A stretch of DNA of 27,645 nucleotides, from the IMG/VR virus record IMGVR_UViG_3300034283_001218, positions 1-27,645 of that record. The stretch is one strand, 5' to 3'. The notes under the pieces were generated by a model. It ran no database searches. It was not told the origin of the DNA and worked only from the letters and a program-made list of their open reading frames with translations. Of the stretch, positions 4,028 through 16,382 are shown piece after piece; positions within the stretch are counted from its first letter, which is position 1; every line of letters begins with the position of its first letter. Source of the stretch: a virus. The position numbers were made by a program, and so were the translations under genes.

Positions 4028-4166
4028 TTTCCCAAGCGTCCATTTTCTTTTTCAAGGCTTCCAGCATATCCAAGGCAAGTTCAAGGTCTTGAACAGAGAT
4101 ACCAAGGATAGTGGAAGCCTCTAAGATTTTGTAGGGCGTAAGTTTGTTCTTAGGCTTCTTAGCCAT
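4005..4166 (-). CDS. Small protein (53 aa) directly after ERF
   Basis: This 53-residue protein is coupled to the ERF gene through a TAATG junction: the ERF stop codon and this ATG share one base. It begins MAKKPKNKLTPYKILEAS. The rest (STILGISVQDLELALDMLEALKKKMDAWENEL) is helical and looks like a short HTH followed by a coiled helix. It overlaps the next gene's start by 23 bp. TAATG coupling also occurs at the portal and fibre genes in this window, which supports this being a real gene. Function unknown. Confidence 0.7.
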   Translation of the reverse strand: MAKKPKNKLTPYKILEASTILGISVQDLELALDMLEALKKKMDAWENELPEKD

Positions 4167-4975
4167 TAGAAGGGAACCTCATCCTGCCCCTGCGACTGAC
4201 CGCTGGAGGCCATTTCATACAGGGCTACGGCAGTTGCCTTCAACTTAGCATCCTTAGCCGTCACTTTGCCAGTCTTCTCGTAAGGACGAGGCTCCCACTT
4301 GGTAGCCCAGTAGGTCAAGTCATTAAGGCCAAGGTCACCGATAGCGGTTCCCTTGTTGTTTCCAAAAGGAACAGGAATAGAAGGGTCGATATCTGCGACA
4401 CCACTAGGAACAGGCTCACTACGAGGAGCAGGAGCAAGAGCAGGGGCAGAGACAACTTCTGTAGGCTTAGGGCCATTGTAGGACTTGTTAGGGATAAACT
4501 TTCCAGCAGGAGCAGAGGTGGTCTTCACCTGTCTGTCGGTTTCTGCATCGTCATCGTCCAGACTGATACCCGCAATGGAGGCCAGCGAATATCTACGGAT
4601 GTAGGAATAGATGCTACCTGCATGCTGACCCTGCATGCCCTTGTCGCAAGGGATAAGAGCGTTGCTAGAGATGGAGCCACCATCCTTGTGCAGGATGATA
4701 TTGCGGACACCTACCACATCGATATCACCGACAGGCATCTGAAGGATAGCCAGACCATGCTTGTGAGCAAGGGGCTTAAGATATTTCAGATGGGCTTGGA
4801 GACTGGCGAACTTATTTTTAAAATGAGGGTTATAGTCATCAGCAGGGATATCCTCTGCTTCATGGACAAAGGCAATCAGAGCCTTGACGAGACTGAGTTG
4901 TTGTTCGGGAGTATTATCGGTCATGCGGGTGGGATGGTTATAGGTGTAGGAAGAAAAGGAATCGAATACGCTCAT
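4166..4975 (-). CDS. erf: ERF-family single-strand annealing protein
   Basis: This 269-residue protein matches the ERF family of phage single-strand annealing recombinases. An N-terminal helix (QQLSLVKALIAFVHEAEDI) is followed by the family-type NPHFKNKFASLQAHLKYLKPLAHKHGLAILQMP (about residues 47-81) and GSIYSYIRRYSLASIAGISLDDDDA (about 121-145). The C-terminal half is a Pro/Ala linker, then an acidic tip DEVPF like those that SSB-type proteins use to contact partners. ERF proteins coat ssDNA and anneal complementary strands, usually with an exonuclease such as the one at 6756. The ATG at 4975 is chosen because a promoter (5019-4991) and an AATCAACCAC leader sit directly before it. It heads the second leftward transcription unit. 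Confidence 0.9.
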   Translation of the reverse strand: MSVFDSFSSYTYNHPTRMTDNTPEQQLSLVKALIAFVHEAEDIPADDYNPHFKNKFASLQAHLKYLKPLAHKHGLAILQMPVGDIDVVGVRNIILHKDGGSISSNALIPCDKGMQGQHAGSIYSYIRRYSLASIAGISLDDDDAETDRQVKTTSAPAGKFIPNKSYNGPKPTEVVSAPALAPAPRSEPVPSGVADIDPSIPVPFGNNKGTAIGDLGLNDLTYWATKWEPRPYEKTGKVTAKDAKLKATAVALYEMASSGQSQGQDEVPF

Positions 4976-5019
4976 GTGGTTGATTGGCTTGTTATACCAT
5001 AGTAGTTTCTATTCGTCAA
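4976..5019 (-). promoter_or_regulatory. Promoter and SD-less leader of the ERF gene
   Basis: On the - strand, TTGACG (5019-5014), a 17-bp spacer and TATAAC (4996-4991) form a near-consensus sigma70-type promoter. The leader ends AATCAACCACATGAGC, the same ACCACATGAGC context used by several accessory cassettes on the + strand. No Shine-Dalgarno sequence is present. It lies just downstream of a leftward terminator, so the ERF unit can be transcribed independently of the loader operon. Confidence 0.7.
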
Positions 5020-6517: not shown

Positions 6518-6763
6518 TTATTTTAATTTGATGTTCTGTTCAAGCATCTGCCATCCGTCTCCCTCGACATAGGCACGAACAGTAATGCAGAGACTGTCGT
6601 ATTCAAAACTGGCGTTGATGGTATACTCATCACGCTCAATAGTCATGTTGCCCTTATTGGACAGCATGTCATCTTTCCAGTCTTCCATGAAGTTGACGAT
6701 GATATTCTCAGCCCAAGCACCATAGCCAAGGCGATTGATTTGGTCTTTCATGTTATCAGACAT
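6518..6763 (-). CDS. Small acidic hypothetical protein (81 aa)
   Basis: This 81-residue acidic protein starts at an ATG overlapping the exonuclease stop by 8 bp (ATGTCTGA). A helix (MKDQINRLGYGAWAENIIVNFMEDWKDDML) is followed by two or three beta strands (TIERDEYTINASFEYDSLCITVRAYVE). It lies between exonuclease and initiator genes. It is not recognised; an accessory role in recombination or replication is suggested by position only. Confidence 0.75.
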   Translation of the reverse strand: MSDNMKDQINRLGYGAWAENIIVNFMEDWKDDMLSNKGNMTIERDEYTINASFEYDSLCITVRAYVEGDGWQMLEQNIKLK

Positions 6764-7553
6764 CGATGATAGTGCTGTTGGTGTCGTAGCCCATCCACAT
6801 TTCGTGTTCAACGCAATGCTGGATTTGAGCAATGGCAAGAAGCATCTTCTCTCTGGACTTCTTGAGGCTGTTCACCGAAATCTCGAAACAACGCACACCA
6901 TGAGGCGGGTTTTTCTCGACCATTATGAAGATAAAACGGAAGTCTGGATGTCCGTTATGCTCAAGGAGCATGACATACATAGCGTTCTGAATGGCATACA
7001 TGTTGTCCAGAATCACATTCTTGACCTCATACATGTTCGACAGGTTAGCGTTGGTGGTCTTAAGGTCGAGGATGATACGCTGTTCCCAGTTCACCCAGTC
7101 CATGCGTCCCTTGAGTTTCACATCCTCGTAAGGAAGGACATCAGAGAACACAGAAACTTCAGCGTCACCCTTGCTGGTGACATCCATGAAGATGGGGTGT
7201 TGACGAACCTTGTCAGCCATGCTGGAGACAGAATCAAACTCCTCGTCATTGATGATAATCTTGCCAGCGTTATCCTCGACAAACTTGGCGTGGTCTGCCT
7301 TGTCTTGCGTCTTACGCATGTCGAACTTCTTGGACACGACAACTTCCTTGCTGAACAGGCTAGGCTGGAAGCAGGCAAGGTGAGTAGCAGTTCCGATAAG
7401 CATCGGCTTGGTGACCTCTCGCTGTTCATCGAACTGTGCGATGTAATGTTCTGGAGAATAGAACATAGGCTTGAGGGTGCTTTGACTGATGCCGATTTCG
7501 GAACGATAGTCCGCATCTGGCATGTTTTTTACGATTCTGGTGTATTCGCTCAT
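6756..7553 (-). CDS. Phage exonuclease, PD-(D/E)XK / RecE-like
   Basis: This 265-residue protein has the layout of the exonuclease VIII/RecE-like PD-(D/E)XK family. ISQSTLKPMFYSPEHYIAQ leads to MLIGTATHLACF (H58), then GDAEVSVF (129-136), the catalytic LKGRMDWV (148-154, D152) and ILDLKTT (161-167, D163 and K165), and a later Tyr/Gln helix (YAIQNAMYVM). These enzymes resect dsDNA ends to give ssDNA for an annealing protein, here ERF at 4166. The ATG at 7553 is chosen over the longer frame (to 7667) because a promoter and the leader CTTCACCCACATGAGC precede it, and because the extra N-terminus overlaps the rusA gene. Confidence 0.88.
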   Translation of the reverse strand: MSEYTRIVKNMPDADYRSEIGISQSTLKPMFYSPEHYIAQFDEQREVTKPMLIGTATHLACFQPSLFSKEVVVSKKFDMRKTQDKADHAKFVEDNAGKIIINDEEFDSVSSMADKVRQHPIFMDVTSKGDAEVSVFSDVLPYEDVKLKGRMDWVNWEQRIILDLKTTNANLSNMYEVKNVILDNMYAIQNAMYVMLLEHNGHPDFRFIFIMVEKNPPHGVRCFEISVNSLKKSREKMLLAIAQIQHCVEHEMWMGYDTNSTIIDV

Positions 7554-7598
7554 GTGGGTGAAGATGTATTGTTTACCACGAACACCTCGTAATGTCAA
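7554..7598 (-). promoter_or_regulatory. Promoter and CTTCACCCAC leader of the exonuclease gene
   Basis: On the - strand, TTGACA (7598-7593), a 17-bp spacer and TAAACA (7575-7570) lie inside the last codons of rusA, whose TAA stop is part of the -10 hexamer. The leader ends ATCTTCACCCACATGAGC, the same CTTCACCCAC sequence as in the + strand accessory cassettes. There is no SD. The cassette-type control element is therefore used on both strands. Confidence 0.65.
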
Positions 7599-7992
7599 TG
7601 AGTATCCGTGGGCCAGAGACAGAAAATAATTTGTGCGTGTGTTTGGAGCAGACGAGGGAATCGTCAACCATGTAGCCAGCCTCTACCAGACCATCGAGAA
7701 CCATCTTCTCAAGGTTATCCAAATCGGGTCTGGTTGTCTTAGGCAACACATCAGTCTCACCCTTATGCTTCTTGAGGAAGGGATATTCAAAGGTGATTTC
7801 GACATACAGAGGGAAGTCGTATGGCTTCTCTGGCTTATCCTTCATAACCTTGGCAACAAACTCCTTCTTCCACCTGCTTGCCTTGCTGGATGCCATTTTT
7901 CCTACAAACATTTTCCCTGCTTTGTTCTTAAGAATACGCAAAGCACTCTGCTGAGTAGGGGAAGGCTCTATGTATACTGTGATTCTTTTCAT
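7573..7992 (-). CDS. rusA: RusA-family Holliday junction resolvase
   Basis: This 139-residue protein matches the RusA family. It has an N-terminal strand-rich part (MKRITVYIEPSPT), a basic stretch KASRWKKEFVAK, then the catalytic RPDLDNLEKMVLDGL (88-102, with D90 and D92) and YMVDD (107-111) with the family's further aspartates. RusA dimers resolve Holliday junctions during recombination and packaging. The length fits a stand-alone RusA (about 120-140). The ATG at 7992 is preferred; the frame is open to 8043, but that extension is hydrophobic and atypical. It is the first gene of the leftward unit, divergent from the HTH gene at 8123. Confidence 0.9.
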   Translation of the reverse strand: MKRITVYIEPSPTQQSALRILKNKAGKMFVGKMASSKASRWKKEFVAKVMKDKPEKPYDFPLYVEITFEYPFLKKHKGETDVLPKTTRPDLDNLEKMVLDGLVEAGYMVDDSLVCSKHTHKLFSVSGPRILIDITRCSW

Positions 7993-8122: not shown

Positions 8123-8650
8123 ATGGAGTTCAAGTCAAAACAGGAAATAATCAGCAATGACCAGAAGCAAAATCACACAGGTGAGAGGCTTCCAGAAGGG
8201 TTGCGTAGCCAGATTAAGCAGATGCTTTCAGAGGGTAAATCTCAGCGGCAAATACAGTCAGAGACAGGCGTATCAGCCCACACGATAGTCGGAATACGCA
8301 AAAGCATGCCAGCCCTTGACGAGAAGAGTTGGAAGAAAAATGTCATGGAAACTTTGCGTGATGTTGTGAGCCGTGGTGCGAGCAGATTGAGCGATGAGAT
8401 TGATGACATCCCCATCACAGCAATGCCTGTTTCATTGGGTATTCTCATTGATAAGATTAATGTCCTCAATGACCAGCCCACGGCTGTGGTCGAGCATCGT
8501 ATGCGTATCACGCACGATGAGATAAATAATATTTTGCTAGATGCTAATGTCATTGACGAAAAGCCCTTGACAGAATCGTGTAAGTCTGGCAGTCTTGCCG
8601 AGAACTCACATGAGCAACGACAAGATATTCAACAACAAGAGGGAACTTAA
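8123..8650 (+). CDS. HTH-domain phage protein, probable regulator
   Basis: This 175-residue protein (from ATG 8123) has a resolvase-type helix-turn-helix: LRSQIKQMLSEGKSQRQIQSETGVSAHTIVGIRKSM (about residues 27-62). A conserved-looking helical domain follows (LRDVVSRGASRLSDEIDDIPITAMPVSLGILIDKINVLNDQP, about 78-120). That arrangement is common in small phage DNA-binding proteins near replication modules. It may regulate the divergent early units or bind the origin. The frame is open back to 7970; ATG 8084 and ATG 8123 are both possible, and 8123 is chosen because a -10-like CTATCT lies just before it. The end overlaps the next gene by 41 bp, and the next promoter lies within its coding sequence. 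Confidence 0.75.
   Translation: MEFKSKQEIISNDQKQNHTGERLPEGLRSQIKQMLSEGKSQRQIQSETGVSAHTIVGIRKSMPALDEKSWKKNVMETLRDVVSRGASRLSDEIDDIPITAMPVSLGILIDKINVLNDQPTAVVEHRMRITHDEINNILLDANVIDEKPLTESCKSGSLAENSHEQRQDIQQQEGT
8567..8609 (+). promoter_or_regulatory. Cassette promoter 1
   Basis: TTGACA (8567-8572), a 17-bp spacer and CAGTCT (8590-8595) lie within the end of the HTH gene. The -10 is a weak match, but its final CT and the exact 17-bp spacing agree with the other cassettes. The leader ends GAACTCACATGAGC, the ATGAGC start context shared with later cassettes. Confidence 0.5.
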
Positions 8651-8918
8651 CCGCTTCCTCAAGCACACCAACAAGTTCTACGAGAACATCAACAACATCG
8701 ATGATGCGTTTGATGCTTTCGCCAAGGACAATTGCATCGATGCCTTTGAGGTAATCGCTCGCAACTGCAAAGACCCTGCGATTGGTTTCCCCAAGGAAGG
8801 TAAGGCTGGCTGGGCTAACACCCGCAGAGCCTATCGTGAGCATTGGGCTAAAGCAGACATTGCCATTCAGTCCTGCCTGTCCGAATGGAAGCGTAGGAAA
8901 GATATGCGAGCCTCTTGA
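8610..8918 (+). CDS. Small accessory protein (102 aa)
   Basis: This 102-residue protein starts MSNDKIFNNKRELNRFLK and is almost wholly helical, with a mixed acidic middle (NNIDDAFDAFAKDNCIDAF) and a basic end (EWKRRKDMRAS). It is not recognised. ATG 8610 is preferred over the in-frame ATG at 8595 because of the CACATGAGC context and because 8595 lies in the -10 element. Its TGA stop is part of the next cassette's TTGACA. As the first cassette gene it probably acts early, but nothing in the sequence shows a function. Confidence 0.75.
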   Translation: MSNDKIFNNKRELNRFLKHTNKFYENINNIDDAFDAFAKDNCIDAFEVIARNCKDPAIGFPKEGKAGWANTRRAYREHWAKADIAIQSCLSEWKRRKDMRAS

Positions 8919-8955
8919 CACTAATCTGCCAATAGAGTATAACATCATCTCTCCC
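8915..8955 (+). promoter_or_regulatory. Cassette promoter 2
   Basis: TTGACA (8915-8920), 17 bp containing ATCTGC, then TATAAC (8938-8943) form one of the best promoters in the array. The -35 contains the TGA stop of the upstream gene. Only 12 bp separate the -10 and the ATG, so the predicted leader is about 6 nt (nearly leaderless). Confidence 0.75.
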
Positions 8956-9171
8956 ATGAAGAAGACCCGCAAATCCCGAAAGGCAACCACGCTGTGCATC
9001 AAGCAGGTTCGGAATATCATCCGTTCCTATGGCAAGCAGGCGAAACCCGAATTCATCGAGGCGTTTGAACGCTTTGTGAATTTCAAACTGCGACAGGCTA
9101 TCGAAACCCCCAACGGCAAGGCCAAGCGTCTTGATGCTACTGTCGCTGGATTCTGTTTCGGCAACCATTGA
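8956..9171 (+). CDS. Small basic protein, histone-fold-like pattern
   Basis: This 71-residue basic protein starts MKKTRKSRKATT. After a Lys/Arg tail come a short helix (IKQVRNIIRSYG), a long helix (KPEFIEAFERFVNFKLRQAIE) and a Lys/Arg-rich loop leading to LDATVAGF. Short helix, long helix, basic loop and short helix is the order of a single histone fold, as in the short histone-like proteins known in some bacteria and in archaea. This resemblance is by pattern only. A DNA-binding role is likely from the charge. ATG 8956 is set by the promoter. The tRNA-Arg gene follows 7 bp after the stop and is probably on the same transcript. Confidence 0.7.
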   Translation: MKKTRKSRKATTLCIKQVRNIIRSYGKQAKPEFIEAFERFVNFKLRQAIETPNGKAKRLDATVAGFCFGNH

Positions 9172-9178
9172 TTAATCT

Positions 9179-9250
9179 GACCCTGTAGTTCAACGGATAG
9201 AACATCTGCCTTCTAAGCAGAATATCTTGGTTCGATTCCAAGCAGGGTCA
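9179..9250 (+). tRNA. tRNA-Arg (anticodon TCT)
   Basis: A 72-nt cloverleaf: acceptor GACCCTG with CAGGGTC, D stem GTTC/GAAC, anticodon stem TCTGC/GCAGA with loop CTTCTAA (anticodon TCT, reading AGA), T arm CTTGG/CCAAG. CCA is not encoded. It lies inside the accessory cassette array, 7 bp after one gene and 27 bp before the next ATG, so it is presumably processed out of a mixed mRNA-tRNA transcript. Confidence 0.93.
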
Positions 9251-9277
9251 ATTTTCACCCACATTTCCTACCACACC
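9251..9277 (+). promoter_or_regulatory. Cassette-type G-free leader between tRNA-Arg and 9278
   Basis: The 27 bases between the tRNA 3' end and the ATG are ATTTTCACCCACATTT then CCTACCACACC, a clear variant of the cassette leader with no G and no Shine-Dalgarno sequence. No promoter hexamers precede it; the tRNA gene occupies that place. Cleavage at the tRNA 3' end would leave an mRNA beginning with this leader. Confidence 0.55.
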
Positions 9278-9589
9278 ATGAATAAAGATTACGAAACGGA
9301 AGTCATCATTGATGGCATCCCTTATGCAGTCGCTTGCGAACTTGAACTTGAAGTTATCGATGATGGCATCGGTGACTATGAATATTGGGGCTCCAAAGGC
9401 ACAGACCATAATTATGTATGGGACTTGGCTGATTACTCTTTTGAAGCCTATGATGACAAGGGAAACCTTGTTGAGGATTTAGTTTTAAAGGTTAAAATCG
9501 CTTTTGCTGTTGAGAAGAAAATCCTCAACTACATTGCCGAACTCCCCATCGAAAAAGAATCTTACGATTCCGAGGAGGACACCTATTGA
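9278..9589 (+). CDS. Small acidic accessory protein (103 aa)
   Basis: This 103-residue, strongly acidic protein starts MNKDYETEVIIDGIPYAVACELELEVIDDG. It has alternating beta strands (EVIIDGIPYAVACELELEV, YSFEAYDDKGN, LVLKVKIAF), then a helix and a Glu/Asp tail (EKESYDSEEDTY). The strongly acidic character and small beta-rich build recall DNA-mimic inhibitors, but no family is recognised. The longer in-frame start at 9227 lies within the tRNA and is rejected. The TGA stop forms part of the following TTGACT. Confidence 0.78.
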   Translation: MNKDYETEVIIDGIPYAVACELELEVIDDGIGDYEYWGSKGTDHNYVWDLADYSFEAYDDKGNLVEDLVLKVKIAFAVEKKILNYIAELPIEKESYDSEEDTY

Positions 9590-9634
9590 CTTTAATTCGC
9601 ACACCTGCGATACTATTCACCTTCACCCACCGAT
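9586..9634 (+). promoter_or_regulatory. Cassette promoter 3 and leader
   Basis: TTGACT (9586-9591), a 17-bp spacer and GATACT (9609-9614), followed by ATTCACCTTCACCCACCGAT to the ATG. The -35 includes the upstream TGA stop (9587-9589). The spacer has TTCGC where most copies have TCTGC. Confidence 0.8.
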
Positions 9635-10012
9635 ATGAATACCGATACTAACTACCTCAACGATAACGCTGAAGCCGAACAGCAACTTGATGCCAAAATC
9701 AAGGAGCGAGCCCAGCACCCCAAGATGCTGGAACTGTCGCAAGACAGGAAGGACAGCAAGTCCTACTACATCGTAGCCTACAAGACGGCCTTTAGCGACA
9801 GCGTGAACCAACTTTGGCACATGACCGCTATCGAGGCTATGGGCTTCATCACCAAGGAAAAACTGGTCTTTGGTGTCAACCAATACAGCGTTATGAAGGT
9901 CTGCGTTAATGGCGATATGTTCCCCAAGTTCAAGGATATCACTATCCAAGAATTGCAGGATGAGTCGTTCATGGAGAGCAACCACGCCATCGCTCAAATC
10001 ACAGCCTCTTGA
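9635..10012 (+). CDS. Accessory protein (125 aa) of unknown function
   Basis: This 125-residue protein starts MNTDTNYLNDNAEAEQQLDAK. An N-terminal helix (about 10-45) leads to a mixed alpha/beta part (SYYIVAYKTAFSDSVNQLWHM, EKLVFGVNQYSVMKVCVNGDMF). It is not recognised. It has its own promoter and cassette leader. The TGA stop is part of the next TTGACA. Nothing suggests membrane insertion or secretion. Confidence 0.78.
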   Translation: MNTDTNYLNDNAEAEQQLDAKIKERAQHPKMLELSQDRKDSKSYYIVAYKTAFSDSVNQLWHMTAIEAMGFITKEKLVFGVNQYSVMKVCVNGDMFPKFKDITIQELQDESFMESNHAIAQITAS

Positions 10013-10062
10013 CAGGGGCTTGTAAATCTACGATACTTCAATCCTCAACCCACACCTACCAC
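10009..10062 (+). promoter_or_regulatory. Cassette promoter 4 and leader
   Basis: TTGACA (10009-10014), 17 bp, GATACT (10032-10037). The leader is TCAATCCTCAACC then CACACCTACCAC to the ATG: no G, no SD. The -35 overlaps the upstream TGA stop (10010-10012). The spacer here lacks TCTGC. Confidence 0.8.
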
Positions 10063-10392
10063 ATGAGCAAACGAGAAATCCAACTGGCTGTCACACAGCA
10101 CTTCACCAAGCCTGTTCGCATGACCTATGCGAATGGAGAAGACCAGACCAAGACCAACGGCTTTACTGTGAATGTCACAGTATTCAAGCATGACGCAGAC
10201 GCTACGCACATCAGCGGTGCGTGGGAAATCTGTAGCGATGACTCCTCCTGTTACGGAGAAGGAACGCTGTCCTTTGACCTGCAAGGCAACTGCTTTGATT
10301 ACGATGGCTGTTATGACCTGTCTCACCATGTGTGCGACATCCTCAACGCTAACGGATACAACGCCAAGGAAGTCGATTCTCGCCTCTTCTAA
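10063..10392 (+). CDS. Cysteine-containing accessory protein (109 aa)
   Basis: This 109-residue protein starts MSKREIQLAVTQHFTKPVRMTY. Five cysteines lie in the second half (EICSDDSSCYGEG, GNCFDYDGCYDLSHHVCDIL), an arrangement that could bind metal, though no zinc-finger family fits. The protein is acidic. ATG 10063 follows the standard leader. An earlier in-frame ATG at 10009 lies in the promoter and is rejected. The next gene starts 5 bp after the stop with no promoter between, so this cassette carries two genes. Confidence 0.78.
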   Translation: MSKREIQLAVTQHFTKPVRMTYANGEDQTKTNGFTVNVTVFKHDADATHISGAWEICSDDSSCYGEGTLSFDLQGNCFDYDGCYDLSHHVCDILNANGYNAKEVDSRLF

Positions 10393-10396
10393 TCAC

Positions 10397-10636
10397 ATGG
10401 ACAACACCCAGATTCAAAGTATTGCCGTAGACGCTATTCACCGCATAAGCAGGGAGGCAAAGATGTGCGTTTTTATTTTAGTTGATGAAGATTTGGCTAT
10501 GTGTGATGGCTACGAAAGCCTCACGCAGGATGAGAAGGAGCAAATCTATGACAACTTCCATGAAGCAATGTTAGACCACTATCACGAAATCATGGAGCAA
10601 GCGGTTCGTGATATCATCGATGACCGCAACGATTGA
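10397..10636 (+). CDS. Small acidic helical protein (79 aa), second gene of cassette 4
   Basis: This 79-residue acidic protein (MDNTQIQSIAVDAIHRISREAKM, ending RDIIDDRND) is mainly helical, with the patterned stretch YESLTQDEKEQIYDNFHEAMLDHYHEIM. The ATG is 5 bp after the preceding stop in TAATCACATGG, again a CACATG context. Longer in-frame starts lie within the gene upstream. The TGA stop forms part of the next TTGACA. Not recognised. Confidence 0.72.
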   Translation: MDNTQIQSIAVDAIHRISREAKMCVFILVDEDLAMCDGYESLTQDEKEQIYDNFHEAMLDHYHEIMEQAVRDIIDDRND

Positions 10637-10686
10637 CATAACTCTGCACATAGACGATACTGTTCACCTCAACCCACCTACCACAT
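10633..10686 (+). promoter_or_regulatory. Cassette promoter 5 and leader
   Basis: TTGACA (10633-10638), 17 bp containing CTCTGC, GATACT (10656-10661). The leader is GTTCACCTCAACC then CACCTACCACAT. The -35 overlaps the upstream TGA stop. Confidence 0.85.
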
Positions 10687-11070
10687 ATGAGAAACAAAGA
10701 AATTCGATACGACTACCAAACTGAAGCGGAAAAGGCTTCCTCTCGGAAACATCGTGAGGAGGTATACGAAACCAGAAACAAAATCCTGTCTCACGGACAT
10801 AAGGACAGGGAGGAAAGCCTTATGCCTTACAGAAACGCATTGCAGAAACAACTTGATGCCATGACGGAAGCCTGTGCTTCTGATATGTCCAAAGAGAGCA
10901 ATGAGGACTTGGAGCAAATTGTTTTTGCCATTATCAACGACTTGCTTGGTGAGGCTCAAGACTGCAATAACCACCACATGGATTCGCACACCTTCTTTGT
11001 CCTGCGACAGGCTACGGCAATCAAGGAATACCTCAAGAGAGCCCCCCTTGACATTCCTCCACAGTCTTGA
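10687..11070 (+). CDS. Helical accessory protein (127 aa)
   Basis: This 127-residue protein starts MRNKEIRYDYQTEAEKASSRKHREE. The first 40 residues are basic, the rest mostly helical (NALQKQLDAMTEACASDM, EDLEQIVFAIINDLLGEAQ). It is not recognised. Its last 8 codons contain the -35 box and spacer of the next promoter, and its TGA stop ends one base before the GATACT. Coding and promoter DNA are thus fully shared. Confidence 0.78.
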   Translation: MRNKEIRYDYQTEAEKASSRKHREEVYETRNKILSHGHKDREESLMPYRNALQKQLDAMTEACASDMSKESNEDLEQIVFAIINDLLGEAQDCNNHHMDSHTFFVLRQATAIKEYLKRAPLDIPPQS

Positions 11071-11101
11071 GATACTGTTCACCTTCACCCACATCACACA
11101 C
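11048..11101 (+). promoter_or_regulatory. Cassette promoter 6 and leader
   Basis: TTGACA (11048-11053), 17 bp, GATACT (11071-11076), leader GTTCACCTTCACCC then ACATCACACAC. The whole -35 and spacer are inside the end of the upstream gene. Confidence 0.85.
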
Positions 11102-11455
11102 ATGGAATACACCGATTCTGAAAAACTTATGAACCGCATCAAGGCGTTGCTCTCCCTTGATGAAAACACCACCCGATTCGGGGAAGGTGACGAGGAGGTT
11201 ATCCGCATTTACTGCAATAATTTCCACATCACGCATAAGGACATCACCACCGACACCCTCAACGACATTGAAGAGGCTTATCAAGGTGAATACCGCAATG
11301 GTAAGGAATTTGCGGAGCAACTGGTAGACGATACTGGTATGCTGTCCAATGTCCCCGATAACATTCGCTTTTATTTCGATTATGAAGCGTTTGCTAGGGA
11401 TTTGTTCATGGGCGATTACTGGATTGAGGATGGTCATGTGTTCCTCAGTCTCTGA
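11102..11455 (+). CDS. ArdA-like antirestriction protein (C-terminal half)
   Basis: This 117-residue acidic protein ends in a segment of ArdA type: EEAYQGEYRNGKEFAEQLVDDTG, then VPDNIRFYFDYEAFARDLFMGDYWIEDGHVF (about residues 82-114). ArdA proteins mimic bent B-form DNA and block type I restriction and modification enzymes. The FDYEAFARDL signature and the final GHVF are recognisable family features. ArdA proteins are usually about 165-180 residues with three domains; this one lacks most of the N-terminal part and has instead a short helical segment (DSEKLMNRIKALLSLDE). It may be a compact ArdA relative. This is the only accessory gene here with a recognisable function, and it marks the array as probably anti-defence. 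The identification is by eye. Confidence 0.7.
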   Translation: MEYTDSEKLMNRIKALLSLDENTTRFGEGDEEVIRIYCNNFHITHKDITTDTLNDIEEAYQGEYRNGKEFAEQLVDDTGMLSNVPDNIRFYFDYEAFARDLFMGDYWIEDGHVFLSL

Positions 11456-11467
11456 GGACACAGCCCA

Positions 11468-11519
11468 TTGACATTGCTCTGCATCTGTGTGATACTGTTC
11501 ACCTTCACCCACACCTACC
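11468..11519 (+). promoter_or_regulatory. Cassette promoter 7 and leader
   Basis: TTGACA (11468-11473), 17 bp containing CTCTGC, GATACT (11491-11496), leader GTTCACCTTCACCC then ACACCTACC. Unlike most copies, the -35 sits 12 bp after the upstream stop. Confidence 0.85.
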
Positions 11520-11816
11520 ATGTTCGTCCTCAACTACACCCATCGTCTTCACCTTAACAACGGCTCCGTCATCACTATCCCGCAAGGGACTGAAATGGTT
11601 CCTACTGGATTTAAACCCCTTTGGGATAAGAATGGCGATGGCAAGCGGACGGCTCGTTACTACATCAAGGATGCTGTTGCCATTAATGGTAATGGTAACA
11701 ACTGGTGGGAAATCTCTGGTGCTTCCTTCCATTCCCACAAAGTTTCCCGCATCAGCAAGGCACAGTTTGCAGAGTGGAAGGCAACCCACCTTGACACTAC
11801 TCTGCGGATGGGGTAA
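11520..11816 (+). CDS. Small accessory protein (98 aa)
   Basis: This 98-residue basic protein starts MFVLNYTHRLHLNNGSVITI. It looks beta-rich, with a Gly/Asn-rich central loop (AINGNGNNWWEISGASFHSH) and a C-terminal helix (ISKAQFAEWKATH). Not recognised. The last codons hold the next -35 and spacer, and the TAA stop is the start of the next -10 (TAATCT). Confidence 0.75.
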   Translation: MFVLNYTHRLHLNNGSVITIPQGTEMVPTGFKPLWDKNGDGKRTARYYIKDAVAINGNGNNWWEISGASFHSHKVSRISKAQFAEWKATHLDTTLRMG

Positions 11817-11862
11817 TCTTCAATCGTTCACCCAACACCACCCACAACACACCTACCACACC
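11791..11862 (+). promoter_or_regulatory. Cassette promoter 8 and long leader
   Basis: TTGACA (11791-11796), 17 bp containing CTCTGC, TAATCT (11814-11819). The leader is longer than usual (about 43 nt): it repeats CACCCA-type blocks and ends AACACACCTACCACACC before ATGAGC. The -10 includes the upstream TAA stop. Confidence 0.75.
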
Positions 11863-12276
11863 ATGAGCCTTAACTTCAAATTCCCCGATGGCATCGACAA
11901 GAGCCTTATCGAAATCCAGAGGGAGGACGGCCTTCATTGGCATCCTAGAGCCTCCAGCCTTGTCTACTACACCATGCTCCTCCAGCATGACATGAGTGGC
12001 GAAATGACCGATGCCAAGTTAAGGGAGATTGACCGAAGGATTCGGCTTATCGACCTGCACCATGACCATTGTGCTTACTGGGAAGGAACGCAGGGGTATC
12101 GCATCCAACTGGCTGATATTGTCACTTATTGGGGGCTTACTGTTAATGTCTGCCACCTGTCTGCTGGACGCTGGAACACCTACTACAATCGTTGCTTCAC
12201 CAAGCGAATCGATGCCACAGCCAAGGACAAACTGCGGGACACCACCCGCAAGGCATACACCACCCGCCCCGCTTGA
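11863..12276 (+). CDS. Accessory protein (137 aa)
   Basis: This 137-residue protein starts MSLNFKFPDGIDKSLIEIQRED. The central part (DAKLREIDRRIRLIDLHHDHCAYWEGTQGYRIQLADIV) is helical and rich in His; the end is basic. Not recognised. The HDHC and nearby His residues might bind metal, but no motif is diagnostic. The TGA stop overlaps the next TTGACA. Confidence 0.77.
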   Translation: MSLNFKFPDGIDKSLIEIQREDGLHWHPRASSLVYYTMLLQHDMSGEMTDAKLREIDRRIRLIDLHHDHCAYWEGTQGYRIQLADIVTYWGLTVNVCHLSAGRWNTYYNRCFTKRIDATAKDKLRDTTRKAYTTRPA

Positions 12277-12326
12277 CACTAATCTGCAACCCTGCGATAC
12301 TGTTCACCTTCACCCACACCTACCAC
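12273..12326 (+). promoter_or_regulatory. Cassette promoter 9 and leader
   Basis: TTGACA (12273-12278), 17 bp containing ATCTGC, GATACT (12296-12301), leader GTTCACCTTCACCC then ACACCTACCAC, followed by ATGAGC. This copy carries every shared element and is the best reference for the cassette. The -35 overlaps the upstream TGA stop. Confidence 0.88.
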
Positions 12327-12635
12327 ATGAGCAAATCCCGCACCAAACGCAACACAGCCACCCGCAAGCCGTTCAAGCCGTTCACCATTGACCACATGGA
12401 CAGCATCACCATCCTGTCCCTGTATCAGTCCCTGCACATGGCTGACCGACACAAGATGTATCTCGCCCCCGCTTGGCTGGTTCGCCAGTCTGCCGACACA
12501 TGGCTGGCAAAGGTTGGCGTAACCCTGCCCAAGGGAGCCCGATGGAAGACCATCCTCAACGAGGTTTGCGATGCCTATCGTGCCATCCTGCCCATCGATG
12601 CCGACAACAATCCCTTGCCCACCAAATCGGATTGA
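12327..12635 (+). CDS. Basic accessory protein (102 aa)
   Basis: This 102-residue protein has a Lys/Arg-rich N-terminus (MSKSRTKRNTATRKPFKPF), then helices (MDSITILSLYQSLHMADRHKM, WLVRQSADTWLAKVG) and a final helix (RWKTILNEVCDAYRAIL). The basic tail suggests nucleic-acid binding. Not recognised. Its DNA is richer in G+C than the cassettes to the left. The stop codon is followed at once by the AT-rich 11-bp repeats. Confidence 0.77.
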   Translation: MSKSRTKRNTATRKPFKPFTIDHMDSITILSLYQSLHMADRHKMYLAPAWLVRQSADTWLAKVGVTLPKGARWKTILNEVCDAYRAILPIDADNNPLPTKSD

Positions 12636-12636
12636 T

Positions 12637-12673
12637 TTACATTTAATTTACATTTAATTTACATTTAATTTAC
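12637..12673. repeat. Three 11-bp AT-rich direct repeats (candidate origin unwinding element)
   Basis: TTACATTTAAT occurs three times in tandem (12637, 12648, 12659) followed by a partial TTAC. The 11-bp period is close to one helical turn. Such AT-rich tandem repeats are typical of DNA-unwinding elements of origins; here they lie 21 bp from a cluster of G+C-rich short repeats. They might instead be an upstream promoter element or operator. The contrast with the GC-rich surroundings is sharp. Confidence 0.6.
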
Positions 12674-12693
12674 CTTACTATACGCACGCACGC

Positions 12694-12752
12694 CCACACA
12701 CAGGCACGCCCCACACACAGGCAGACAGGCACAGGCACAGGCAGACGCAGGC
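12694..12752. repeat. ACAGGC iteron-like repeat cluster
   Basis: ACAGGC occurs five times (12700, 12717, 12725, 12731, 12737), the last three in tandem, and a related GCAGGC lies at 12746. The first two lie within a 13-bp direct repeat, CCACACACAGGCA (12694 and 12711). The cluster is next to the 11-bp AT-rich repeats. Short iterons beside an AT-rich block is the usual layout of an initiator-bound origin. Simple low-complexity drift is the alternative. Confidence 0.5.
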
Positions 12753-12776
12753 TCCCCGCAGGCTCCTGCCTACCCC

Positions 12777-12850
12777 TTGACCAGCCTCTGCCGATGGCGT
12801 AGACTGCTCTCGTCAATCCGACACCCACCCACCAAACACCACACCACACC
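12777..12850 (+). promoter_or_regulatory. Cassette promoter 10 and leader
   Basis: TTGACC (12777-12782), 17 bp containing CTCTGC, TAGACT (12800-12805), then a C/A-rich leader of about 38 nt made of CACCCA and CCACACC-type units before the ATG. It is a divergent copy of the cassette promoter after the repeat region. Confidence 0.7.
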
Positions 12851-13150
12851 ATGACCGACACCATCACCCACCTGCTCACGCAGGCTCTCACCCAGTCCCT
12901 CAAGGACGCCCTCACGCCCATCGTGCGGGAAGCCGTCACGGAGGCTCTCGCCACCATGCCCCCAAAGGCTCTGGCTGACGAGACGCAGGCCGAGGACACC
13001 AGCCCCCTCCTTGAACGCATCAAGGCTCTGGAAGAGCAGGTTGCTGACCTCGAAAGCCAGATGAGCGACAAGGCCGACACCAACGACATCGAGCAGGCCG
13101 TAATCGATGCCATCGACAACGGCTCCTTCTCCATCGAGTTTCGAGGCTGA
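12851..13150 (+). CDS. Coiled-coil accessory protein (99 aa)
   Basis: This 99-residue acidic protein starts MTDTITHLLTQALTQSLKDAL. An amphipathic N-terminal helix is followed by an Ala-rich stretch and a clear coiled coil (LLERIKALEEQVADLESQMSD, about residues 53-73), then a short acidic end. It probably oligomerises. No family is recognised. G+C content is high for this genome. It is followed by a promoter for one more very small gene. Confidence 0.78.
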   Translation: MTDTITHLLTQALTQSLKDALTPIVREAVTEALATMPPKALADETQAEDTSPLLERIKALEEQVADLESQMSDKADTNDIEQAVIDAIDNGSFSIEFRG

Positions 13151-13175
13151 CCCACCTGCCCACCTGCCCACCCTC

Positions 13176-13210
13176 TTGACCGAGGGCTGGGCATCTGGTA
13201 GGCTCTCCAC
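13176..13210 (+). promoter_or_regulatory. Cassette promoter 11, apparently leaderless
   Basis: TTGACC (13176-13181), 17 bp, TAGGCT (13199-13204), and then only six bases (CTCCAC) before the ATG at 13211. With normal spacing the transcript would start at or next to the A of the ATG, so the mRNA is predicted to be leaderless. Confidence 0.6.
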
Positions 13211-13375
13211 ATGACCCGCAGACACTTCAAGGCTCTCGCCCAAGCAATCGCCAGCCTGCCCCGCCAAGAGGACAGGGACAGGCTTATTGCCTACTGGCTC
13301 CCCTACTGCCAAGCCGTCAACCCCCGCTTCAACCCTTCCCGCTTCATCCAAGCCTGTCAGCCTGCCAAAGGCTAA
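13211..13375 (+). CDS. Very small basic protein (54 aa) with HF-LA-I and NPRFN motifs
   Basis: This 54-residue protein (MTRRHFKALAQAIASL, ending FIQACQPAKG) resembles small phage and plasmid proteins that share an N-terminal R-HF-LA-I helix, an aromatic-rich middle (RLIAYWLPYCQAV) and a final NPRFNPSRFIQAC. These have no assigned function as far as I know. It starts immediately downstream of a promoter and is probably translated from a leaderless mRNA. It is the last gene of the array. Confidence 0.72.
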   Translation: MTRRHFKALAQAIASLPRQEDRDRLIAYWLPYCQAVNPRFNPSRFIQACQPAKG

Positions 13376-13450
13376 CGCCCACCCAACCCACACCATGCCC
13401 AGCCTCCTATCATCAACCATGCGGGTAACGCCCGCAACTGGGGATTCATC

Positions 13451-13508
13451 CAACCCCTTTCCCCCCTCATGCATCACCCTTAAAAGGGCTTAGGGGGGGA
13501 GGGGGTTG
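13451..13508 (+). terminator. Strong long hairpin after the accessory array, probable terminator
   Basis: A 17-base arm (13451-13467) pairs along its full length with 13492-13508, using two G-U pairs; it is mostly C-run against G-run. The 24-base loop holds a second hairpin (CCCTT/AAGGG, 13477-13488). It follows the last accessory gene. There is no long U tract afterwards (only CCCTTT), so it is either an imperfect terminator or an RNA-stability or processing structure. Confidence 0.5.
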
Positions 13509-13717
13509 CCCTTTGCATCCATAAGGTCTAGGTATTCGGGTTACACCATGAACAATTTTTATGCAAAAAGGAACACGACCCGAACCTTTAGGTGAGGGTG
13601 AGGAAGGGGATTACTAAGGGGATTGTCAGAAACATAGTCAAGCGGGAAATGTAGATTGTGGATAATTTATATGATATAAGGTCAATGGAAGAAATCTGGT
13701 GGTGGTGAATCTGTCAC

Positions 13718-13746
13718 TTGACTTAATCGTAAAAAGATTGTAAAGT
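13718..13746 (+). promoter_or_regulatory. Possible promoter for the tRNA cluster and late genes
   Basis: TTGACT (13718-13723), a 17-bp spacer and TAAAGT (13741-13746) lie 150 bp before the first tRNA of the cluster. The -10 is a weak match, and the spacer lacks the TCTGC element of the cassette promoters. Confidence 0.4.
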
Positions 13747-13893
13747 CCGAGTGTTCTTTGAATTTGCTGGCGTTCTCCGTGAGAAATAGTAGCGGCATAT
13801 GCGTTGTATAATGGGCGTTTCGCCAATGTTGTGTTGTGAAGAAGCATATCGCTGATACAAGAGTGGGCTGATACCCACCCGCCAGTCCATTTA

Positions 13894-13965
13894 CATCAAG
13901 TAGCGTAATGGCAACGCACCTGCTTTGGGTGCAGGGGATTGCAGGTTCAAGTCCTGTCTTGGTGA
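13894..13965 (+). tRNA. tRNA-Pro (anticodon TGG)
   Basis: A 72-nt cloverleaf: acceptor CATCAAG with CTTGGTG (one T-G pair), short D stem GCG/CGC, anticodon stem CCTGC/GCAGG with loop TTTGGGT (anticodon TGG), T arm GCAGG/CCTGT. The C1-G72 pair is typical of bacterial tRNA-Pro. CCA is not encoded. First of four adjacent tRNA genes. Confidence 0.9.
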
Positions 13966-13969
13966 CTTT

Positions 13970-14054
13970 AGAGGGTTGGCAGAGTGGCCTATTGCGGTAG
14001 TCTTGAAAACTACTGGGTGTCAAAGCCCCATCCGTTCAAATCGGATACCCTCTG
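13970..14054 (+). tRNA. tRNA-Ser (anticodon TGA)
   Basis: An 85-nt class II tRNA: acceptor AGAGGGT with ACCCTCT, discriminator G, anticodon stem GTAGT/ACTAC with loop CTTGAAA (anticodon TGA, reading UCA), a long variable arm (TGGGTGTCAAAGCCCCA) and T arm ATCCG/CGGAT. It starts 4 bp after the tRNA-Pro gene. Confidence 0.93.
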
Positions 14055-14056
14055 CT

Positions 14057-14111
14057 TTAATAGCGTCAATCCTTATTAAAGGAAAACGCTTTTGGCGTTA
14101 ATAGCGTCAAT
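14057..14111 (+). repeat. 14-bp direct repeat with hairpin between tRNA-Ser and tRNA-Gln
   Basis: TTAATAGCGTCAAT occurs exactly at 14057-14070 and 14098-14111, 41 bp apart. Between them lies a 5-bp hairpin, AACGC/GCGTT (14085-14099). The spacing and position between two tRNAs suggest a relic of duplication or of a lost tRNA, or an RNA-processing signal. Confidence 0.7.
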
Positions 14112-14121
14112 GTTAATTAAC

Positions 14122-14192
14122 ACCTCGATGGTGTAATGGCAACACAGGAGATTTTGATTCTCTTATTCGGGGTTCAAATCCCTGTCGAGGTT
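14122..14192 (+). tRNA. tRNA-Gln (anticodon TTG)
   Basis: A 71-nt cloverleaf: acceptor ACCTCGA with TCGAGGT, D stem GTGT/ACAC, anticodon stem GGAGA/TCTCT with loop TTTTGAT (anticodon TTG, reading CAA), T arm CGGGG/CCCTG. CCA not encoded. Confidence 0.9.
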
Positions 14193-14197
14193 CTTTC

Positions 14198-14270
14198 GGG
14201 GGTGTAACTCAGCGGTCAGAGTGGGCTCTTTATAAGGGCTAAGTCGGGAGTTCAATTCTCCCCACCCCTA
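14198..14270 (+). tRNA. tRNA-Ile (anticodon TAT)
   Basis: A 73-nt cloverleaf: acceptor GGGGGTG with CACCCCT (G-T first pair), anticodon stem GGCTC/GGGCT with loop TTTATAA (anticodon TAT, reading AUA), T arm GGGAG/CTCCC. Most bacteria read AUA with a modified CAT-anticodon tRNA; an encoded TAT anticodon avoids that modification. ATA is frequent in the late genes here. Confidence 0.87.
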
Positions 14271-14290
14271 CTTTTAAATTTTATTGTATT

Positions 14291-14722
14291 ATGAGTGAAA
14301 ATATATCAGAAAAAGACCTTTCGGAAAGATTGGGCCTGTCAAGAGACGAGGTTCGCCTATGGCGTTCCAAATCTCCCACCAAGTATGTCTTCCAACAACA
14401 AAGCAAGAAGCCCAGCAAACTGTGGCCTTGGATGTGGACTAGCGATGGTGTTTCTTGGCTGACTGACCAACTGAATGCCGAAAGCGACACTATTGCCAAA
14501 GAACTTTATGAAGAAATTAAGCCAGAAGAAAAGGATGTTGAAGTTGTCCGTTGTAACTTTCCTAATCTACGATTTTTACTTGTCAAAGACAAACACGGCA
14601 GTCAGTTCTCCGTTGTTTGTAAGGACAACAGGGCTTTTCGTGTCGGAGTAAAGATTGCTGTCAAGAAGGACCGCATCGGCTGGTTCGTTAAGCGTAATCC
14701 CGCATATAAGCAAAATGGCTAA
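14291..14722 (+). CDS. HTH-containing protein (143 aa), first late gene
   Basis: This 143-residue protein starts with a helix-turn-helix-like segment (EKDLSERLGLSRDEVRLWRSKSPTKYVF, residues about 6-33), followed by a Trp-rich stretch (LWPWMWTSDGVSWL) and a C-terminal beta-rich basic part (RFLLVKDKHGSQFSVVCKDNRAFRVGVKIAVKKD). It lies 20 bp after tRNA-Ile and is coupled to the next gene by an 8-bp overlap. It may bind DNA: a late regulator or small terminase subunit are possible. No family is recognised. Confidence 0.82.
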   Translation: MSENISEKDLSERLGLSRDEVRLWRSKSPTKYVFQQQSKKPSKLWPWMWTSDGVSWLTDQLNAESDTIAKELYEEIKPEEKDVEVVRCNFPNLRFLLVKDKHGSQFSVVCKDNRAFRVGVKIAVKKDRIGWFVKRNPAYKQNG

Positions 14723-15011
14723 GAAGAAATCGTCTAAAAAGAACAAATCGCAGTTCAATGACGAGCAGTTTGAAGCCCACGCTTTAGACTCTCTTTCCAA
14801 AGACATGCGGACATGGGACATCCCTTGGTGCGTCTCTGTTTTTGGTAAGCCGAACTCCGATGATGTCAAGATAATGATTGCTGGCAAACCAGCAAACATT
14901 GACAAAGACCAGAATGTGCTGTTTATGAAGTCTCTGATGACTATTGCTATCATGGCCTTACAGGAAGGTCTTGACGATAAGAACCAGAGGTATGACATAA
15001 TTGACACTTGA
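14715..15011 (+). CDS. Small hypothetical protein (98 aa), Lys-rich start
   Basis: This 98-residue protein starts MAKKKSSKKNKSQFNDEQFEAHA. The Lys-rich tail is followed by an alpha/beta region (WCVSVFGKPNSDDVKIMIAGKPANIDKDQNVLFMKSLMTIAIMALQEGL). ATG 14715 overlaps the preceding gene by 8 bp and is preferred to the in-frame 14655, which lies deep in that gene. Not recognised. Confidence 0.78.
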   Translation: MAKKKSSKKNKSQFNDEQFEAHALDSLSKDMRTWDIPWCVSVFGKPNSDDVKIMIAGKPANIDKDQNVLFMKSLMTIAIMALQEGLDDKNQRYDIIDT

Positions 15012-15105
15012 CTATATAAAAATTTTTTAAACCTTGGTGGTTTATGTTGCCCTCTGACCCAAACGAATCAGAAGAGGATGACGAAATCCCCTTTGAAGAA
15101 CTTAT

Positions 15106-15567
15106 ATGGCTAAAAAACAAGACCAATTTTCCAATATGCAGATGCCTCCTCTCTGGACTGGAGTTGCAGGGCAGGGCAACCAGAAGATATATTCGCTTGG
15201 GGGGAAGTGGTATCCTGCTGGCACAACCCTCCAGAGTGGTTACAAGATTGTCGGTGACGATGGGAAAGGAACCCTAAAGATGTCTTGGAATGGCCTTCCA
15301 GTTAATGTAGCCATGCAAGGGGCTACCATACAGCCATATACGCCACCACAGACTTTTAATCAAGCCCCTGCTTGGATGGGTGGCGGTGCTATGTCCACCC
15401 AAGAAGAAGAGATGGCAGGAATGTATAACCCTTATAGTGACCCTACTTTAGTTCTCCAAGAACAGGAAAACAGGAAATATAACGACATGATAATGTTGAA
15501 AATTAATCAAATTAAAAACAAGTATCCAAATCTTGAATTAACTGACATGGAAGGCAATTTCCGATAA
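15106..15567 (+). CDS. Hypothetical late protein (153 aa)
   Basis: This 153-residue protein starts MAKKQDQFSNMQMPPLWTG. It is rich in Gly, Pro and Gln, with a beta-like first half (KIYSLGGKWYPAGTTLQSGYKIVGDDGKGTLKMSW), a Pro-rich middle and a helical C-terminus (DPTLVLQEQENRKYNDMIMLKINQIKNKYPNL). It looks like a minor virion or assembly protein but no family is recognised. GAAGAAC precedes the start by 4 bp, an SD-like exception. The tRNA-Thr gene follows 6 bp after the stop. Confidence 0.8.
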   Translation: MAKKQDQFSNMQMPPLWTGVAGQGNQKIYSLGGKWYPAGTTLQSGYKIVGDDGKGTLKMSWNGLPVNVAMQGATIQPYTPPQTFNQAPAWMGGGAMSTQEEEMAGMYNPYSDPTLVLQEQENRKYNDMIMLKINQIKNKYPNLELTDMEGNFR

Positions 15568-15573
15568 TATTTT

Positions 15574-15645
15574 GCCTTGTTAGCACAGCGGTAGTGCGAC
15601 TGTTTTGTAAACAGTAGGTCGTTGGTTCAATCCCAACACAAGGCT
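15574..15645 (+). tRNA. tRNA-Thr (anticodon TGT)
   Basis: A 72-nt cloverleaf: acceptor GCCTTGT with ACAAGGC, D stem GCAC/GTGC, anticodon stem ACTGT/ACAGT with loop TTTGTAA (anticodon TGT, reading ACA), T arm GTTGG/CCAAC. It stands alone between a late gene and the lysin gene, 8 bp before the lysin ATG. Confidence 0.93.
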
Positions 15646-15653
15646 CCTTTAAA

Positions 15654-16382
15654 ATGACACCACAAGAATTAGCAAAATACGAGGCAGATGTCTCGAAACA
15701 GTATAGTAGTTGGGCTCCATCAATGATGAATGCCATGACCCTAAAGGGTTGGGGGCCAGAAGAAAAAGCAAACATCCTTCATCAGTTTAAGTTTGAAAGT
15801 AATGGCGTTCAGATGCGTCCAGAGAATCTGAATTACAGGCCAGAAGTAATTGTGGCTAAGTTTGGAGACAGGCCGCATTTTGCTGGAATGAATCCAGCAC
15901 AAAAACTTGCTGAAGCAAAAAGAATTGTATCACTTGGTCCTGTTGCGATTGCAGATGCGGCCTATGGTGGCATACTTGGTAACGCAAGAAATGAAGGATA
16001 TAAATACAGAGGAAGAGGATTTGTCCAACTTACTGGAAAGGAAAATTATCAGAAAATTGGTGAAAGGCTTAAACTCGACTTGGTAAACAACCCAGACCTC
16101 ATATTAAAAGACCCTAAGATTGACGAAATGGTTTCACTTGAATACATGAAGTGGAAACAAGAGCAATTTGGATATGACTTTAAGCAATTAAGACAGGTTT
16201 CAAAAGCGATAACTCCAGAAAAATTTGAACACAGAATGGAACTCGCTGGCAAGAGAAAGATTGTTAAACTTAACTCTGACTATATAGGTGCAATGACTCC
16301 AGCAGAAGACGATAAAACTCTTGCTCTTCTAAAGGAAGGTAAGATATCTCTTCAGACATATTACGAAAACAGAGGATGGTAA
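15654..16382 (+). CDS. GH19-type endolysin
   Basis: This 242-residue protein matches the GH19 (chitinase-like) lysozyme fold used by phage endolysins. Key regions are ILHQFKFESNG (Glu48), RPENLNYRP (Glu57), YGGILGNARNEGYKYRGRGFVQLTGKENY (104-132) and VNNPDLI. The two glutamates nine residues apart in these motifs are the probable catalytic acid and base. The enzyme would cut the glycan strands of host peptidoglycan at lysis. There is no signal peptide or membrane segment, so a holin is needed. The stop overlaps the terminase start, so lysin and packaging genes are co-translated. Confidence 0.9.
   Translation: MTPQELAKYEADVSKQYSSWAPSMMNAMTLKGWGPEEKANILHQFKFESNGVQMRPENLNYRPEVIVAKFGDRPHFAGMNPAQKLAEAKRIVSLGPVAIADAAYGGILGNARNEGYKYRGRGFVQLTGKENYQKIGERLKLDLVNNPDLILKDPKIDEMVSLEYMKWKQEQFGYDFKQLRQVSKAITPEKFEHRMELAGKRKIVKLNSDYIGAMTPAEDDKTLALLKEGKISLQTYYENRGW

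Follow-up and report, generated by a model that had tools for sequence, protein, structure and literature searches.

Promoter-early stem-loops (PeSLs) of T4-type phages, reportedly the subject of work by Arbiol (2010) and Comeau (2014), are one of the described systems closest to the one reported here, an array of repeated promoter-leader elements set between small genes in the virus record IMGVR_UViG_3300034283_001218 (positions 1 to 27,645, all of which were analyzed and which we call the window, or W). PeSLs are repeated early-promoter units lying between small accessory genes, for which gene shuffling by homologous recombination has been proposed (PMC4503421). In cluster K mycobacteriophages, a 46-47-bp repeated promoter (extended start-associated sequence, ESAS) and a repeated start-site sequence (SAS) stand before genes of different families (PMC3203893), and the ESAS contain SigA-like promoters (PMC11373665). 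PAK_P1-like Pseudomonas phages carry 41-nt repeats in the early region, in five or six copies, each a sigma-70 promoter of the pattern TTGACA-N17-TAgAAT in conserved surroundings, with 32 invariant positions (PMC4309531), and the SPO1 host-takeover module groups small early genes that have strong promoters (PMC6873191).

The window, a 27.6-kb fragment, comes from a tailed phage whose core genes are podovirus-like. Its array, at 8567 to 13375, reads rightward and is flanked by a leftward replication/recombination block and by the tRNA cluster ahead of the late genes. Our reading is that host-type promoters punctuate an early accessory region here and probably double as short recombination joints.

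An array of repeated promoter-leader elements

We scanned the entire window, plus and minus strand, for TTGAC-N18-NANN(CT/AC) with a G-poor run from there to an ATG. The scan returned 11 plus-strand sites (elements 1 to 11, Table 1), where dinucleotide shuffles give a mean of 0.36 elements and a maximum of 3, and it confirmed the positions, 17-bp spacing, and -10 hexamers listed in an earlier note on this DNA. TTGAC-N18-GATACT occurs seven times against 0.02 expected, and TTCACCTTCACCCA occurs four times against 0.005 expected; GATACT is the -10 of six elements, each of the other five having its own. The only minus-strand site, at 5019 before erf, belongs to an element (4976-5019) that matches the design (TTGACG-17-TATAAC, with a leader ending AACCAC-ATG) and has a counterpart in a relative, G001.

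Relatives were gathered from IMG/VR as terminase homologues, and six of them have arrays: G001, G003, G004, G007, and G008, whose elements are of the window's kind, and the distant G038 (terminase identity to the window, 92% for G001 and 62% for G038). The elements had been described as near-identical, which holds for six or seven of the window's copies and not for the rest. Nine are solid and 41 to 74 bp long. Element 1 is marginal, having a CAGTCT -10 (CAACTT in G003), G in its leader, and a location within the upstream gene; element 11, the weakest at 35 bp, has a TAGGCT -10 and lacks a counterpart in G001. The leaders are G-poor: across related arrays they average 4.6% G and 49% C, against 23% G in the array's open reading frames (ORFs). 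Two ORFs lack a promoter of their own, one of them after a tRNA-Arg and behind the same type of leader, the other 4 nt after the preceding gene (Table 1).

With their -35, 17-bp spacing, and TGn extension of the -10 (in 31 of 46 elements), the elements have the features expected of sigma-70 extended -10 promoters. In 16 of the 38 elements that lie close behind another gene, the TGA within the -35 TTGAC is that gene's stop codon, and in several more the stop is a TAA or TGA within the -10 or next to it; the element is therefore the entire joint between two genes, comprising stop, promoter, leader, and start. The earlier note mentions neither the TG extension nor these enclosed stop codons. Elements of one genome share exact tracts of 20 to 30 bp, the longest being 30 bp in W (elements 7 and 9) and 28 bp in G003. 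No inverted repeat reported in 8500-13500 coincides with the elements, no Shine-Dalgarno match exceeding 3 nt was found in the array start regions, and no terminator-like site was found on the plus strand within the array, so that transcripts would nest and read through. RNA structure was considered for the leader and rejected, the leader regions being unpaired in predicted folds and Rfam returning only tRNA matches.

Conservation and cassette turnover among relatives

Payload families were numbered, with the window's 11102 gene counted as family 11. The family order is 5, 6, 7, 2, 3, 8, 14, 11, 9, 0, 1, 4, 10 in W; 5, 6, 7, 2, 3, 8, 11, 12, 0, 1, 4, 10 in G001; 5, 6, 7, 2, 3, 8, 13, 16, 11, 9, 0 in G003, where the contig ends; 2, 3, 13, 11, 9, 12, 0, 1, 4 in G007; 0, 17, 1, 4 in G004; and 18, 1, 12, 0, 10, 19 in G008. 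The check proposed earlier, a comparison of cassette order, thus turns up single cassettes that differ one by one, while W, G001, G003, and G007 keep the families they share collinear; the only moved gene is that of family 1 in G008. In G007, for instance, family 12 directly follows family 9, while W has only 9 and G001 only 12. Outside the array, almost all window genes tested match G001.

Two junctions were dissected by alignment. At the first, the G001 element at 9916, which stands before family 11, corresponds to W element 5 on its promoter side and to W element 6 on its leader side, a hybrid that exactly omits the family 14 cassette. At the second, W element 7 and the G001 element at 10440 agree in 15 of 17 spacer letters, yet the genes behind them are unrelated and homology stops at the ATG. 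In the slot after family 8, the spacer CTGCACATAGAC is kept in three phages in front of three different genes, and in G003 a second copy of it precedes family 11. The elements border shuffled genes in these relatives, as in T4 PeSLs. Breakpoints fall in the elements, as the idea of cassette gain by recombination between leaders had it, but anywhere in them, promoter included.

Between W and G001, the -35 differs at 1 of 48 positions (2%), the -10 at 5 of 48 (10%), the leader at about 15%, and the spacer at 35%, compared with 32% of the four-fold synonymous sites of cassette genes. Because the -35, -10, and leader differ less than four-fold sites do, promoter and leader are under constraint, and the neutral-rate leader divergence that the earlier note had named as grounds for refutation is not seen; the spacer is nearly free to evolve. 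Even so, among elements with differing payloads, two spacers from one genome resemble each other more than two from different genomes do (similarity, 0.447 versus 0.379; p = 0.0005), while within-genome likeness of leaders does not exceed that between genomes. Spacers appear homogenized within genomes and leaders do not, which tells selection (on the leader) apart from copying (of the spacer).

The likeliest alternative is that the likeness of the elements reflects selection for the same strong promoter and start on every early gene and that turnover is ordinary illegitimate recombination in which the elements play no part. Such selection would produce constrained -35, -10, and leader sequences, spacers that average the synonymous rate, leaders equally alike within and between genomes, and a gene order that is largely retained, all of which we see. 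It leaves unexplained why freely evolving spacers match at one slot before unrelated genes (15/17 and 14/17 letters) and why a hybrid element sits exactly at a cassette difference with homology stopping at the ATG, and we consider this explanation unlikely. The repeats could also be operator sites of a phage regulator, such as the Trp-repressor-like protein whose gene heads the array, with the promoters corepressed or coactivated and TCTGCA in the spacer as the site; in W, TCTGC does recur at one set place in the spacer, and cluster K ESAS unite a promoter with an inverted repeat (PMC11373665). However, the whole spacer evolves at the synonymous rate, TCTGC is not at that position in G007 or G008, and the inverted-repeat listing gave none within the element, so that an operator role is quite unlikely. 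Least probable is that the leader itself is the essential unit, signaling translation start to Shine-Dalgarno-poor ribosomes, with the promoters secondary: the leader at 9252-9277 does precede a promoterless gene and the last 20 nt before array starts have 4.6% G against 12-14% in the phage's other genes, but the -35 is the best-conserved part and almost all leaders follow a promoter at fixed spacing.

Several observations weigh against recombination joints. The promoters are predicted from sequence alone, and the host phylum discussed below is based on two contigs with terminase identities of 50-53%. The payload varies only modestly, contrary to the earlier note: G001 has orthologues of 11 of the 13 window genes, arranged alike, and since most cassettes keep their order, exchange must be rare on this time scale. 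Each cassette difference may be a gain or a loss, and the homogenization signal weakens under a stricter control that retains each genome's column composition (23 pairs observed versus 13 expected, maximum 22). Turnover of accessory genes also occurs in many phages that have no such repeats.

In our reading, each element is a predicted host-type sigma-70 promoter joined directly to a short C/A-rich leader, without structure, that runs into the ATG; wherever its -35 contains the preceding stop, this unit ends one gene and begins the next. The elements would fire early via host RNA polymerase and give a 5' untranslated region of about 20 nt, translated without a Shine-Dalgarno sequence, and cassettes would be dropped, acquired, or put under another promoter when copies recombine through exact tracts of 20 to 30 bp, plausibly by the phage's own Erf/exonuclease VIII annealing system. 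Annealing systems of this type act on short homologies. It would be a compact case of one short sequence that serves expression as well as gene exchange within a phage counter-defense region, and cassette order in relatives makes recombination at the promoter joints testable. More tentatively, and with considerable doubt, the locus may be an integrase-free cassette system in which interchangeable anti-host genes are separated by stop-promoter-leader-start units that act as joints for an annealing recombinase, with clade-specific units at the same locus (those of the window clade, the diverged ones of G038, and the structured start element of L044 and L047 described below). A gene captured between two such units would at once be correctly terminated, transcribed, and translated.

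Payload proteins and neighboring genes

The earlier statement that payload proteins are mutually dissimilar stands: BLASTP among the cassette proteins of any one genome gave no hit between them, and duplicated payload was rejected as the source of the repeated leaders, the cassette proteins being without paralogues. The family 11 protein matches Pfam ArdA (E = 2e-15; 58.1 bits against a curated cutoff of 27) over profile positions 81-154 of 155, so that no more than the model's C-terminal half is covered, and PHROG anti-restriction (E = 8e-14); with a domain score over the cutoff and an acidic composition, it has the attributes expected of an ArdA-type anti-restriction protein. Several other cassette proteins are also strongly acidic. 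Searches of Pfam and PHROG placed none of the remaining proteins in a convincing family, and the AlphaFold model of family 0, the most widespread payload, is too low in confidence for use (predicted local distance difference test score, 47). Judging from ArdA alone together with position and size, the payload probably comprises counter-defense and host-takeover proteins, and any small gene behind an element is a candidate anti-defense or takeover gene, with ArdA in support.

The leftward block encodes Erf-like annealing, DnaC-like and O-like replication, exonuclease VIII, and RusA proteins. We propose that the exonuclease VIII-like protein is the partner of the Erf-like recombinase, with the repeated elements as target. 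The helix-turn-helix protein that heads the rightward region (89% identity in G001 and 81% in G003) is a candidate regulator. Three further features lie within or near the array. At 12632-12675, between cassettes 9 and 10, three to four tandem copies of an 11-bp repeat (TTAATTTACAT) are followed by a GC-rich CACACA/CAGGCA stretch. At 13718-13775, just 5' of the tRNA cluster, a promoter-like TTGACT-17-TAAAGT with GTTCTTTGAATTTGCTGGCGTTC behind it is kept in close relatives and resembles rRNA-type boxA antitermination leaders. ARAGORN calls a tRNA-Ile with anticodon tat at 14198-14271, which is atypical in bacteria and may be misread.

Table 1. Coordinates of array elements, cassette genes, neighboring genes, and sister-phage features (window positions unless a phage is named)
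Feature	Position	Strand	Description
Element 1 (marginal)	8567..8609	+	TTGACA-17-CAGTCT, short G-containing leader
Family 5 cassette ORF	8610..8918	+	102 amino acids (aa); its stop within next -35
Element 2	8915..8955	+	TTGACA-17-TATAAC + leader; as in G001 and G003
Family 6 cassette ORF	8956..9171	+	71 aa, basic
tRNA-Arg(tct)	9178..9251	+	Within array; ARAGORN, Rfam
Family 7 cassette ORF	9278..9589	+	103 aa, net charge -19; promoterless, behind G-free leader (9252-9277)
Element 3	9586..9634	+	TTGACT-17-GATACT, TG extended -10, leader ATTCACCTTCACCCACCGAT
Family 2 cassette ORF	9635..10012	+	125 aa
Element 4	10009..10062	+	TTGACA-17-GATACT, leader end CACCTACCAC
Family 3 cassette ORF	10063..10392	+	109 aa
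Family 8 ORF	10397..10636	+	79 aa, second in family 3 cassette, 4 nt downstream of family 3
Element 5	10633..10686	+	TTGACA-17-GATACT; promoter precedes other genes in G001 and G003
Family 14 cassette ORF	10687..11070	+	127 aa, window only
Element 6	11048..11101	+	TTGACA-17-GATACT, TG extended -10, leader TTCACCTTCACCCACATCACACAC
Family 11 cassette ORF	11102..11455	+	ArdA-like, predicted anti-restriction protein, 117 aa, net charge -16
Element 7	11468..11519	+	TTGACA-17-GATACT; G001 counterpart precedes unrelated gene
Family 9 cassette ORF	11520..11816	+	98 aa
Element 8	11791..11862	+	TTGACA-17-TAATCT, its TAA the preceding gene's stop, long G-poor leader
Family 0 cassette ORF	11863..12276	+	137 aa, in 6/6 arrays of the window's kind
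Element 9	12273..12326	+	TTGACA-17-GATACT, TG extended -10, leader TTCACCTTCACCCACACCTACCAC
Family 1 cassette ORF	12327..12635	+	102 aa
Element 10	12777..12850	+	TTGACC-17-TAGACT, long G-poor leader; G001 counterpart at 11737
Family 4 cassette ORF	12851..13150	+	99 aa, acidic
Element 11 (marginal)	13176..13210	+	TTGACC-17-TAGGCT, 6-nt leader
Family 10 cassette ORF	13211..13375	+	54 aa
Erf-like single-stranded DNA-annealing recombinase	4166..4975	-	PHROG 2324, E = 2e-26
Exonuclease VIII-like protein	6756..7667	-	PHROG 412, E = 3e-57
Helix-turn-helix protein (Trp-repressor-like)	8126..8650	+	Heads rightward region; Pfam Trp_repressor, E = 4.9e-6, right at curated cutoff
Terminase	16376-17989		Identified chiefly via its relatives
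Portal	18170-20425		By position; no PHROG match
Major head protein	21812-22885
Structured ~90-nt element in unrelated genes, covering the GTG start and about 25 codons from it	L044:3076-5616, L045:3081-5615, L047:4780-7391, L048:32-122, L049:1-88
Repeated near-identical intrinsic terminators before each cassette gene	L044:3398-6400, L047:5120-7310		CAGCCCCCAGCAATGGGGGCTTTTTT (L044); CCCCGCAAGGGG type (L047)

Host and translation start

A search of bacterial genomes with a single terminase sequence gave no match, while a search with a terminase alignment gave three contigs of metagenome-assembled genomes, two of them Verrucomicrobia (Pedosphaera, 50%; Verrucomicrobia bacterium, 53%). Verrucomicrobiota is thus the likely host phylum, and these hosts have few studied phages. 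Verrucomicrobiota belong among the bacteria in which Shine-Dalgarno sequences are scarce (PMC10783764), so their absence here is expected and fails as the mark that was to set this array apart from cluster K. The array leaders are nonetheless poorer in G than the start regions of the phage's other genes.

Arrays and a different start module in other phages

The arrays of G001 and G038r (IMGVR_UViG_3300047095_000699, 11331-16156) occupy the window's locus upstream of terminase, the latter directly 5' of the gene that, by sequence resemblance, corresponds to the one at 14291 in the window. The G038 element is TTGACA-N17-TCTACT with leader CCTTCACCCAATCCTACC, and the genes behind it are wholly different from those of the window; its TCTACT is without the usual A at position 2 and has a TG extension, and two copies have a 16-bp spacer. 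Arrays of the window's element were absent from the distant terminase relatives G012, G019, G021, G024, G025, G035, G037, and G045, and exact-pattern scans of IMG/VR added no phages beyond the known relatives. Among 50,697 phage records, a search for isolated relatives gave only a tRNA nucleotide match, which is not informative; the best isolate terminase match is 31%, to phage C75C1.

The sister phages L044/L045, L047, L048, and L049 have a different start module, which in L044 and L047 lies at the locus of the window array, upstream of the tRNAs and terminase. In those two phages, near-identical terminators are followed, after a short gap, by a GTG start within a 90-nt element, in at least 13 copies. 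The hairpins of this element covary (both sides changed in 11 of 17 pairs; 0 of 500 shuffles as high), and GGGGA with UCUCCCC may form a pseudoknot. Rfam gave no match to it at an E value of 0.1, and it was found in only a few sister phages and not in the window clade. By inspection, orthologous payloads of L044 and L047 appear behind different module versions. These observations support the view that the locus holds exchangeable genes behind a genome-specific start module.

Comparison with described systems

Like the T4 PeSL, the window element is a sigma-70 promoter repeated between accessory genes, here predicted from sequence and presumably early in timing. The PeSL promoter, however, is joined to a terminator stem-loop, while the window element has no stem-loop, reaches through a leader described as G-free to the ATG, and often includes the upstream stop; the phages are also unrelated. 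The L044/L047 module is closer to PeSLs in one respect, having terminators before its cassettes, which the window clade does not. With the PAK_P1 repeats the array shares the sigma-70 -35 and spacing and repetition in the early region, but its -10 is GATACT, its spacer is variable, and PAK_P1 has fewer copies; neither a conserved leader to the start codon nor cassette exchange is described for the PAK_P1 repeats in the passage cited. SPO1 likewise has small early genes with strong promoters, but it is a Gram-positive phage with ribosome-binding sites and operons, and the passages cited do not describe repeated promoters as recombination joints.

Cluster K, which the earlier note took as the nearest analogue, is apt in its layout of a promoter repeat plus a start-site repeat and in its SigA-like promoters. 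There, however, a 13-bp GGGATAGGAGCCC with a Shine-Dalgarno sequence lies beside the start codon and a 17-bp imperfect inverted repeat overlaps the promoter, neither of which is present here, and the window instead has a compact array with one promoter per cassette. Since the window unit fails a defining feature of the PeSL, of ESAS/SAS, and of the PAK_P1 repeat, it is related to them in kind rather than a member of any, and by this comparison the T4 PeSLs and PAK_P1 repeats appear nearer to it in logic than the cluster K sequences.

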